A stretch of DNA of 64,000 nt. Origin: Medicago truncatula (Eukaryota; Streptophyta; Magnoliopsida; Fabales; Fabaceae). The stretch covers positions 64,605,994-64,669,993 of the forward strand of contig NC_053045.1 of the NCBI RefSeq assembly GCF_003473485.1, in the 5' to 3' direction. Position numbers and translations under genes: made by a program. This document shows, piece after piece, positions 44,663 through 62,600 of the stretch. The notes beneath the pieces are model-generated. The model saw only the letters and a list, made by a program, of their open reading frames with translations, did not search any database and was not told the DNA's origin. Position 1 is the stretch's first letter, and every line of letters starts with the position of its first letter.

Positions 44663-47600
44663 TCAGGTCATATACCTCTTGCAAGTAAAGTCATATATAA
44701 CCTGAAATAGGCTTCTGGATCCAGTATCCTCCTTCAACTTTAGAAGGTGAGCTACTTTCAAAAAACCAGCATGGGATCTAGACATAATATCGTCCTCGTA
44801 CACATCAGATTTATTACTCTCATAATGTCGAGCGAGCTTTGGTTTTGATAGTGCCCACTGCATTGCCCATATGGCTAATGGGCGCATGTAACATAAAGAT
44901 CTATATTCATCTTTAGTAGTCCAAGCTTCTGGAGTTGGAAAGAATAACTGTTGATGAGATATAACAAGAAGCTTAATTAGCTATTAGTGGTATAAAGAAA
45001 GCAGATACATGGATCTGTGAAGTACTAAAGGAACAAGCTATTATTAGCAAACTTTACCCGAGACCATCACTAGACCATGCAGCTTCATATATCCCACCGG
45101 CAGTTTGAAATGCCATATCAGTCATGTTTTCCTGGATCATTGTTGCAGCTAAGGCATATGTTACTCCTGACCATATTCTCGTGATTGCATTGATGACATG
45201 TCAACATTCCCATCAGGTAACATCCCATTTACAGCTCCTCGTTTCCCACCCTTCACTTTCATAACGTTGTTATCATAAACCACCTCAAGTGCACTTCTAA
45301 TCTTCTCTTCTCCAACAATTGGCAAAAGACCACATGCTCTAGCATACCTGCAAAACAAGAAACAGGAAGTTCCAATTTTGTTTTAGATATTACCAAGATC
45401 GATGAAGCGTGGCTACATGTGCAAAAATTCGAGGTACTTATTACATACCATTGGCCAGCTAATTGATCAGCTTGTATGGATGATCTTGAACTTCCACAAC
45501 TGCTATCATAATTGAAGTAAGAACCATTCCATAATTTTTCATACACAGCCTTTGCTTTTTGAAATTTGTGCCAAAAATAAACTTCAGAGCCCTTGTCTCC
45601 AACCTCATGTGCTAAGGCTGACGTGGCCTGAAGTGCTGCTACCCACAATCCACCACTATACGCACTTACACCAGATACAGACCATGTGTCATAGGTTTGA
45701 TCAGGGAATCCTTCATTCTCAATCATTCCGTCACCATCCTTGTCAAATTGGTCCATATAAGCAATTGCAATATAAACAGATGGCCAGACAGCTTGAGCAA
45801 ACTTCTTGTCACCAGTGGCAACCACATCCCTGTAAACCTGAAGAACAAACTTTGGATTCAAGTCTTTCCACCTATCTGTATTATAAAGATTATAGCCATT
45901 TACTTCAGACCACGGGTCACTGATTCCAATATCATGAGGAACAGCACCAAGAACCTTCCTTGATACCAATTGTCCATCATGTAAGAGTTTCATCTTTCCA
46001 GGATCATGCATCAGTACTGCTGCAGCGAAGTCCCTTTGAACACTAAGTTCAAGTTTTGGAAATAGAGTGACTAGTGAAAAAGATGAGTAAAAATGGACAT
46101 CATAGGTATTCCACATTTGATACTCGATTCCTTCAAGATAAAGAAACTGGCCAATGTTTTCTTCCCCTCCCCTTCTTGGAGAAGACTTATTCCATATGCA
46201 GACTTTGATGCAGGTGGAGTTTGTATTTGCTCAACTACTGAGGTAAATCTTTCAAGAATGTCAATAGCAATATCTTTTTGACGTGATATATTATTGTTAT
46301 TCTCTAAATCAGATATGAATCCATCCAGGGAAAATTTTCTTTCTCCTATATTAACTAAACTATGCACAGGAGATGAACCATCTGCACAGAAGAAAAATTA
46401 TGAAGAAAAATCGACAATGGTACATACCGTTTAACGTGAGGTTAGGATGAATTTAAAAGAAATATAGACTAGGGATAACTATCTGGTAAGTATGATTCAA
46501 ACTTTAAGAGATAAAAATACCTGTCCAAATTGCCCCCCCAGAATTCAGGTAGTAAAGTTCATTCAAAAGGGTAACTGGGTACCTGCACAGAACTCTGTAA
46601 GCTTAAGATTTTGACTGTAGAAGCAGGCAGTGAATAAATAACTGATAAGTACCATTCAGGAAGTCTCTTGTCTTCAAGGATTGGTCTTTGCCAATCTTCA
46701 ATCTGGGACTCCCACTGGCAATGTTCTACATCACCAATTCATATAAGTTTGAGTAAGTAATTTCTTATGGTATCAACAATCACAAATAAGCATGCATCTG
46801 CATGGTTTTGCATATATGGTGGAAACTTCATCTAAAATTGACGTCAAGAAAAACTATATCCATACAGTCTGCCTCTTAAAAGTCTATATATGGATATAGT
46901 TATGCTTGATATCAAATTTAGATGCAATCACCATATTACAGATGCAAAGTTGATGGAGTTCAGCAAAGAAGATTACCAATAATAGCATCATGTGCAATAT
47001 TTGCAGCTGCATCTCCTTTAGTACCATAAAATTTAGTGTAACGCCTGTTAATCCAGTTTCATTAGTTATGTACAGTGTTTAAACAATAAATCTTCTTATA
47101 CAGGTTTCTATCGCTAACCTGTAATAAACCCGTCCTCCAGGGAACTTGACTTCAGGGCAGTCCCATGCCAATGAAAATGTCACATTACGCTGAGCATCGG
47201 ATGGAATCGTCACAGTTGCTGCAATAGCTGCCCCAATGGATGATCCTGGTTTTGAAGGCGCAGGTGTTTCAGTAAAATTCAGATGGTCAAATGTCCCATG
47301 CTGAAAAGAAAAGGATTACCATCATTCAGTTTAGTGAAATAAACATATGGATCACATGAAGTCTGATATCCTCAAATTTGTATCATTATAAAATATATAT
47401 TCTTGGAACTATTATTTTATCCAGGGACATGGCATCATGTTTACTAACAGGAAGAGGAACTTCTTAAAATTCATTACTACTCGTAGAATTTGAGTGTCAA
47501 GCCAAATCCAGGAAAATAGCATGCTAAGCAGAAAAGGTAAACACTGTCTGCATCAGTGTCATCTTCATTTAACCAGCTCAGTCATCTCTATCTTAAAATC

Positions 47601-59695: not shown

Positions 59696-62600
59696 TCATT
59701 TAGGCACACTGCCTTCTTCTAAAAGAAGATTGATGATAGACTTAATGATCTCATCATTTAGAACGATCACATTCTGAAAACAAACAAACAAAAAATAACC
59801 GTGTCGTTACTACAACAAAATAAAACAAATAGCATTAAGTTACCATACCATACAAATTACAGAAGAATATAAGCTTTAAGTTAATATAACTGAAACAATA
59901 TTAAGGTAGATTTTGATGCATTAAAACCAGCGAAGAGGATAAGAGAAACATGATGGGCAACGGGAAAGCTTCAAGACATTCAAAATATCATTAGAAATGG
60001 AATATATCTATAAAGTGGTACCTCTGGTTTTCTAATAAGTTCCTTCAAAATGGAATGTAGAGTCAACCGTAGCTCCTTGAACAAGACAGCTATTTGGGCA
60101 GGTGCATTCAATTTTAACCATCCATCGATGATGACTAGTCCAGTCTATCATGTAAAGGAAAGAAAGTTCAAAACAAACAAGAATTTCACACTTGAATGAG
60201 CAGCATTAAACAATCTAGAGAGAGAGCTAACACATGGTTCTGTTTCCTCCGATTAATAATTAGCCACAAAGATCTCTTTTGGTTCCATGTCAGAGATAGT
60301 AAATATTTTTCAATTAGGCGTTTGTTGCATGTTATTATTTTCCTATTTAGTTGAATTAGTAAATAGGTGAAAATTAGAAAGCAAGGTTCTAAACCCATCA
60401 AAAAAATATGATTCAAATGTGGGGATTACTTAGAATTATAAAGAATTTTTTAGAATAAGATTAGAATGTCAACAAAGTCCCCATGACTAATTCAACTACG
60501 AATACTTAGAGGAAAAAGCATCAAAACAAGTCTAAACTAGAGAACAGGCACCCACAAAATGAGCATTAAGAACAATTATTACCCCAAAATTTTGAAGGCA
60601 AGTTGGCAAATAAAATAAATGGTATCAAGAATTTCAATAATCATGGTATTTTTCTCAATACTTCAGTTTCATTGACTGGTTTGTGAACATGAGGACCGAC
60701 AAACCTTGGCATAAACACCATAAAACGATAAAAGGTGCAAAAGAGTATTTTTTCCGCAATAAAACTTAAATAAAATGGTGTATTGTTTCTGAATTTCATT
60801 GTGAAATTTCGGAAAAATAGTGAACAACTTTGAATGGACAAGATCACAGTCAAGGCTTAAAAAAATATCAAATCTAGTATTTTAGGAATGATTTTATAAA
60901 TCTAGAAAAAAAAGAAATAAATATAACATGAATAAGTCTATCTTAGCCCCATGAGTATGGTCTCTAGCCATTGCCATAAGTATAATTTATTTGGGAATAG
61001 AGTAATAGAATATGTACCTGATGCTGAACATTGATTGACCCTCCAAAGAGCAAAATTGAGTATGGAGAAATGACTGAAGTATCTCGTAAAAATATTTTGT
61101 TCGTTTCAACCTGAAAATTTTAACATTTACGTCATTTACATGTAAACAGATTGATTATAAATGTACAGGTTTGATGTATATATTTTATATATTACTTGAA
61201 GGGGTGTTTTAGAATTAGTGTAAACAGGATAATGATGCAATTACATTAATTAGGAAAAATATAAATCCTTATATTTACGCTCTTTATATATTCTCCTGTA
61301 TGTAACTGATGTATGCAATTGAGACAAAATTCACTTTCTCAAAATATTAAACTGAGTAAGAAAATTTAGCCAGGCACATAATTTCTCTAGAAAGAACAAC
61401 CAAACTAGTTACAGGGTTATTAATTATTTTAGAATTGTAAACACATACTGCTATCTGTTTTAGACAAAAGGAGTAGAGAAAAAAAATTAGAACTTCGAAT
61501 ATTATTATTAGTAATTTGATAGCTTGATACTAAAGACTGAACGCTAATTCCCATTTATAGCGATACATAGTCTCAATCTAAAATAAATAGGGAAATCAGG
61601 AAATAAACGGACTCGTAATATCAAACCAAGCTGGAAATACCATGTTGAAATTATGCAATTTTGACAAAAGGAGGAGAGAAAAAAAATAAGAACTTTTTTT
61701 GGTGGTGGCCGGGATTCGAACCCAGACCTTGCATATATTATGCATTGTCCTTACCAATTGAGCTAAGCTCACGGGGACAAAAAAAAAAAAAAAAACTTTG
61801 AATATTATTGTCAATAACTTGATAAATACTTTTTTCTATAATATACTTGATTAGTCCTTACCATCTGAGCTAAGCTCACAGGGACAAAAAAAAAACTTTG
61901 AATATTATTGTCAATAACTTGATAAATACTTTTTTCTATAATATACTTGATACAAAATGGTGAACACTAATCCAAATTTATAGTTAATAACATTGAATAT
62001 TATTGCTAATAACTTGATAGGAAAGACCGAACACTAGTCCCCGTTGTAAGGATACATAGACTTAATCCTAAATAAATAGAGAAATTAAGAAACAAATCAT
62101 AATATGTAATATAAAAAACTAATCCAAAGAGATAATCTACGATACTCTAAGATTATAAACAAATCGTAAGAACTAAACTAAAATTCTCTAATATATTCTA
62201 AGATATTTTATAATATTGATATACGTATTATTACATTACATTGATTTCAAAGCAACAAACTAAATGAACAAACTTAAAGAGATAATACATTTCCAAATTA
62301 TGTTCAAGCAACATTTTAAGCAAAAAAGGAATCTTAACAAAGTTCAGCAAAAACTTTACAAACCTTTTCAAGGAAGACAAGAAAGGGTACTTGAATGCTT
62401 TTGTGCTACTGTTGATAGAAGACGGGTGGACATGAACTTCTCTTCTTCCATCAAACCAGACTCTATGACTAGAATTCGCAGTGCTAGGAGACTGCTTAAG
62501 GCTGGTGAGAGCTGCTGAAACAATACCTTGTTCACCAGCTGCTACATTGGGGTATAAACCTGCACATAGTATAGCCTGCAAGGGTACACTCAGAGATCTT

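Follow-up and report, generated by a model that had tools for sequence, protein, structure and literature searches.

Genes and features at the locus

The window, i.e. the whole analysed stretch of 64,000 nucleotides, is the interval 64,605,994–64,669,993 of chr4 (contig C4, 64,751,493 bp). The assembly comprises 42 contigs with a total of 429,922,655 bp and most likely is Mt5.0 of Medicago truncatula A17. The original prediction, made from the sequence alone, held that four conserved genes in the right part of the window are broken at about thirty sites by contractions of homopolymers, and that four genes on the left are unbroken. We considered these eight genes in chr4 and, from 33,684 onwards, also in C27, an unplaced contig of the same assembly that carries the same locus. 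Frameshifts were called with a protein-to-DNA aligner, written for this analysis, that allows for introns and frameshifts.

557–1,291, plus strand: SDR exon, control; the matched part is open
4,002–7,057, minus strand: FemAB-like gene, control; three open exon pieces (profile positions 1–210, 227–296 and 284–354 of 369)
20,968–21,804, minus strand: dynamin exon, control; the matched part is open
32,813–36,160, minus strand: CLC-c chloride channel gene; intact in chr4, the C27 copy with 7 exon losses
44,666–49,978, minus strand: glucosylceramidase (GH116) gene; 2,866 coding nt with 4 losses and a gain of 5 bases; C27 copy intact
51,828–53,826, plus strand: eEF1B gamma gene; 1,249 coding nt with 12 losses; C27 copy intact
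56,339–58,680, plus strand: FAD oxidoreductase gene (NAD_binding_8, with cyanobacterial relatives); about 1,746 coding nt with 14 losses; C27 copy intact
60,967–62,632, minus strand: helicase, OB_NTP_bind domain in two exon pieces (profile positions 1–52 and 58–83 of 83); losses in and around the pieces

Compared with the protein P0121 (956 residues), the GH116 gene in chr4 lacks a single base at four sites and has a further shift that was scored as +2, and 918 of the 938 aligned codons are identical. GT-AG borders are seen in all 18 introns, no other splice sites being permitted by the aligner. The C27 copy of this gene has no frameshifts over 943 codons.

For the eEF1B gamma gene the reference was P0001 (384 residues), which is encoded on a different M. 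truncatula contig with a length of 56.6 Mb. Eleven frameshifts were found in chr4, each of them one base short, and P0015 revealed one more in the N-terminal exon; between the shifts, every aligned codon (372 of 372) is identical to P0001. In C27 there is no frameshift and the identity is likewise complete (383 of 383 codons).

The FAD oxidoreductase gene, whose coding start and end were placed by eye, was compared with nine of the 12 homologues extracted from 32 loci, all nine being cyanobacterial. These yielded 10–13 shifts in chr4, some of them scored as gains, as homologues this distant cannot settle whether a base was lost or gained. The same gene in C27 has no frameshift relative to L001 and one each relative to L005 and L015, in both cases among the final six residues of the homologue. 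The helicase was assessed from the Pfam pieces and the comparison with C27; its piece in the window had no match in PDB, and the tail piece in L044 had none among bacterial plasmids.

The original prediction stands for three of its four broken genes; for the helicase, the comparison with C27 places chromosomal losses in and around the domain pieces. Its estimate of about thirty frame-breaking sites agrees well with the 31 coding events that the three genes show relative to C27 (GH116, 4 losses and 1 gain; eEF1B gamma, 12; FAD oxidoreductase, 14).

On the left, no break was found in the parts that were matched: in addition to the open matched parts of the three controls, CLC-c in chr4 is identical to M. 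truncatula P0244 at all 627 aligned codons, with 0 frameshifts. The more distant P0241 gives one shift near the end (773 of 777), where both proteins differ. Also open is a frame some 140 residues long, at 40.0–40.4 kb, which we take to be Helitron-like.

A second copy of the locus on an unplaced contig

A whole-genome search with P0001, in which the best candidates were scored, showed that the eEF1B gamma gene is also present on C27, as two long matches (99% and 94%) without stops, while the chromosomal copy is broken into many pieces. Further matches, on C2 and C3, were of lower similarity among these candidates.

The whole of C27 (positions 1–43,307) aligns, in reverse orientation, to positions 33,684–76,841 of the window and its tail at 99.25%. 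The two sequences differ by 231 indels, comprising 166 loss events in chr4 and 65 in C27, and by 16 mismatches. Seven of the latter are the N bridge between the window and the fetched tail, hence only nine are real substitutions, six of them in one blurred block and three in the rest of the 43-kb overlap. The smaller sequence is therefore wholly contained in the larger one, as in a false duplication, and an end-to-end alignment with nine real substitutions in 43 kb is that of one genomic locus. The consensus quality of the copies is unequal, judging by the numbers of loss events and their complementary positions. Both copies thus represent a single locus; nearly all their differences are short indels, and their errors are complementary. 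Undercalling of homopolymers accounts neither for the block of 29 bases near 60.9 kb nor for a difference of 43 bases at 72,504.

Distribution of losses in the two copies

The following features concern the alignment of the two copies and have no strand.

33,684–64,000: twice-assembled stretch (chr4 and C27), window part; the overlap extends to 76,841 in the tail
36,201–43,000: stretch without chromosomal loss inside the overlap; C27 has 6 losses there
43,454–64,000: window part of the zone in which chr4 has lost single bases; the zone runs on past the window end
46,169–46,173: 5-base tandem gain in chr4
50,001–61,000: peak of the loss zone; 11 kb with 120 loss events, or 106 if the blurred block is counted as one
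60,910–60,965: blurred block; chr4 is 29 bases short of C27, in 15 alignment gaps

The window contains 141 chromosomal loss events, and 139 of them lie right of 43,000, so that the confinement of the errors to the right part of the window is largely borne out. Their extent has to be redrawn: beyond 36.2 kb, chr4 shows its first loss at 43,454, the losses go on past the window end, and their density is uneven. The losses per kb amount to 1.4 in GH116, 9.6 in eEF1B gamma and 8.0 in the FAD oxidoreductase gene. In the interval 44,663–62,575 that the prediction had delimited, chr4 has 135 loss events and 8 gain events relative to C27, the blurred block contributing 15 of the losses. For six of the seven sites that had been named individually, a chromosomal loss of one base lies no more than 8 bases away, and the seventh, 46,165, turned out to be the 5-base gain. 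A contig join, which was to be looked for between 36 and 44 kb, was not found there, C27 crossing this interval in one alignment.

To the left of the peak, the chromosome has 2 loss events at 33.7–36.2 kb, none at 36.2–43.0 kb and 11 at 43–50 kb; to the right of it, there are 25 at 61–70 kb, 3 at 70–73 kb and 5 at 73–76.8 kb. The loss events of C27 number 22 at 33.7–36.2 kb, 28 at 73–76.8 kb and 15 between, seven of these 15 falling at 50–61 kb, that is, in the chromosomal peak. One of the 65, at 46,169, is by homology the gain in chr4 mentioned above and not a loss in C27. Only 14 of the 65 C27 losses are more than 4 kb from its ends; the other 51 lie within this distance, compared with 7 of the 166 chromosomal losses (Fisher p = 1.8e-30). 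Hence chr4 is poor in the middle of the overlap, and C27 is poor at its two ends. The exons of CLC-c demonstrate the reciprocal pattern within one gene, the C27 losses there having no counterpart in chr4 (0 losses in the 1,610 coding nt of the overlap).

The chromosomal loss rate climbs gradually from 43.5 to 51 kb and declines gradually to about 70 kb, the right flank being less steep than the left one, and there is no sharp edge. The median position of the chromosomal losses at 36.2–73.0 kb is 55,830, as against 55,262 for the midpoint of C27.

Homopolymer character of the losses

Residual homopolymer errors of long-read consensus are one-base losses that become commoner as the run length increases. 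The same tendency was observed here. At 43–70 kb, 134 of the 143 one-base chromosomal losses (a count that takes in 7 from the blurred block) fall in runs of at least two letters, which make up 50.8% of bases in the background (p = 3.5e-29), and 9 fall outside any run. The number of losses per run rises from 0.0007 for single letters to 0.009, 0.024, 0.074, 0.134 and 0.244 for lengths from two to six, and is 0.25 at length seven. For the few runs longer than that (3 losses in 21 runs) we see no clear further increase. Thus, the losses are concentrated in runs and their rate climbs up to a length of six or seven, as homopolymer undercalling implies. From the proteins alone, all 15 of 15 coding sites are compatible with the contraction of a run, the null proportion for random deletions being 0.60 (p = 4.5e-4). 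With the C27 copy intact, these numbers uphold the proposal of a regional homopolymer undercall in the assembly. Unlike residual homopolymer errors in general, the losses are concentrated in one duplicated stretch.

Raw counts of homopolymer lengths by bin did not separate the left and right parts convincingly, and were dropped as evidence.

Origin of the broken genes

The broken genes are an assembly artefact and have no biological meaning. We are confident that the locus was falsely duplicated and that the right part of the window belongs to the poorly polished copy. The assembler would have built both a version within the chr4 pseudomolecule and a separate one, the 43.3-kb C27, which was left unplaced. 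During consensus correction, reads lying wholly inside the overlap would have been mapped to C27, and the chr4 copy would hence have retained the homopolymer losses of the draft consensus. Reads extending past an end of C27 presumably fitted chr4 better, which would leave chr4 clean there and the ends of C27 uncorrected. Such a competition for reads predicts two error profiles of the shape that we observe, in agreement with the proposed mechanism, and most likely it was indeed C27 that drew the reads away during polishing.

There are several other ways in which such a stretch could arise. Gap filling with uncorrected PacBio reads, applied with PBJelly to rice and M. truncatula, is known to leave patches of low-quality long-read consensus in otherwise good sequence (PMC5518131), which resembles what we see. 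If a gap in chr4 had been filled in this way, C27 would be an unrelated leftover contig of the locus. We regard this as very unlikely and set it aside because the edges are gradual: unlike in the patches described there, the error rate here shifts over about 10 kb on each side, without a sharp edge and centred on the midpoint of C27. Gradual edges are not predicted by a patched gap and favour read competition; a patch in chr4 would also leave unexplained the errors that C27 has at its own ends. A still less likely source is low coverage near the chromosome end, independent of C27. The locus does lie about 81–145 kb short of the point where the chr4 contig ends, the window stopping 81.5 kb before that point, but the losses become few again at 70–73 kb, closer to the end (the comparison covers the overlap up to 76,841). 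Moreover, reads for the locus existed, since C27 has a clean consensus of the identical bases.

Two further alternatives would make the differences real. The assembly does hold two copies, and these might be two genomic copies that arose by a very recent segmental duplication, the chr4 copy being in decay. We consider this highly improbable, as nine substitutions stand against 231 indels in 43 kb, the losses are in homopolymers, and each copy is clean where the other one is poor. Finally, the broken frames of three conserved genes could be taken for a simultaneous pseudogenisation of housekeeping genes in chr4, which the original prediction had rejected in favour of an artefact. We concur with this choice: pseudogenisation does not fit, because C27 is intact, indels so greatly outnumber substitutions, and 134 of 143 losses are in runs. 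A pseudogene would show substitutions and relaxed constraint, but the eEF1B gamma gene has kept every aligned codon between its shifts. With the second copy intact, this reading is in effect refuted, and we assign it practically no probability.

Relation to known assembly errors and consequences for the reference

The false duplication that we propose has a close parallel in the assemblies of the Vertebrate Genomes Project, where such sequences are described as drawing reads to the better copy in polishing (PMC8081667). The homotype false duplications described there likewise have a locus present twice, one poorer copy and short indels that break the frame, and the poor copy is ascribed to reads aligning to the better one; a figure legend in the same paper presents one case with frameshifts in one gene. 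Unlike in those cases, here a whole 43-kb contig is contained in a plant chromosome while remaining unplaced, the errors are complementary along the overlap, and the comparison was made on the assembled sequences. A search of the literature, covering titles and the beginnings of abstracts, found no published report of this assembly error.

The artefact is of an already known kind and ordinary as biology. It affects a sequence that is apparently the reference for a chromosome in a model legume and seems to be widely used. Three or more conserved genes have broken frames in chr4 and intact doubles on an unplaced contig, hence annotation, copy-number estimates and variant calling are unreliable there. 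The remedy is known in kind: the contained contig should be dropped and the sequence polished anew.

Contained unplaced contigs may have drawn reads from the chromosomes at a number of loci in this assembly, which would leave further housekeeping genes broken in place and counted twice; we rate this as a serious possibility, somewhat short of an even chance. If so, the error would pass into any gene-copy count or loss-of-function call based on this reference. We searched the genome with 800-bp pieces of two of the 31 other unplaced contigs, C25 and C23, and among the best candidates scored both proved to be multi-place repeats.

Tandem repeats are scarce on the right, 2 of the 29 rows lying beyond 44 kb, an observation too weak to be used as evidence. 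One 100-bp tandem repeat, at 61.75–61.95 kb, has units that agree except for the start and the length of one A run. We considered it as an unmerged join and rejected this possibility: the repeat is not a join made by chr4 alone, since it lies within the stretch common to C27.

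Differences between the chromosome 4 copy and the unplaced contig

In C27, the unplaced 43,307-bp contig of the same assembly, the gene of the CLC-c chloride channel is disrupted by seven one-base losses (C27 compared with window positions 34992-35250), whereas the chromosome 4 copy of this gene is intact. The two copies also differ in the region of the helicase gene, where at window positions 60911-60965 chromosome 4 lacks, in one block, approximately 29 bases that are present in C27; this block is not a simple undercall. Past the window end, at position 72504 in window coordinates continued along chromosome 4, there is one 43-base difference between chromosome 4 and C27.

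At window positions 61747-61951, two copies of a 100-bp unit are arranged in tandem, and their A runs are of unequal length, 17 and 10.

A caulimovirid-like stretch

Another part of the window carries the following feature:

29160-31041, plus strand, three open frames; a Caulimovirus coat-protein domain lies in the third

The third frame matches this domain (Pfam PF22909, 2.4e-7), and the stretch appears to be what is left of an endogenous caulimovirid.

The end of chromosome 4 and other unplaced contigs

No arrays of at least three telomere repeats were found in the final 81.5 kb of the chromosome 4 contig (C4:64670001-64751493; pieces L043-L049, L041 and L042). The M. truncatula CLC-c protein P0244 comes from a contig of 64,763,011 bp, while C4 comprises 64,751,493 bp, being 11.5 kb shorter, and hence a second record of chromosome 4 may exist.

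Two other unplaced contigs, C25 (20001-20800) and C14 (2150-2947), have in common 800 bp of approximately 100% identity; this piece is repetitive and has about 40 places among the matches listed.
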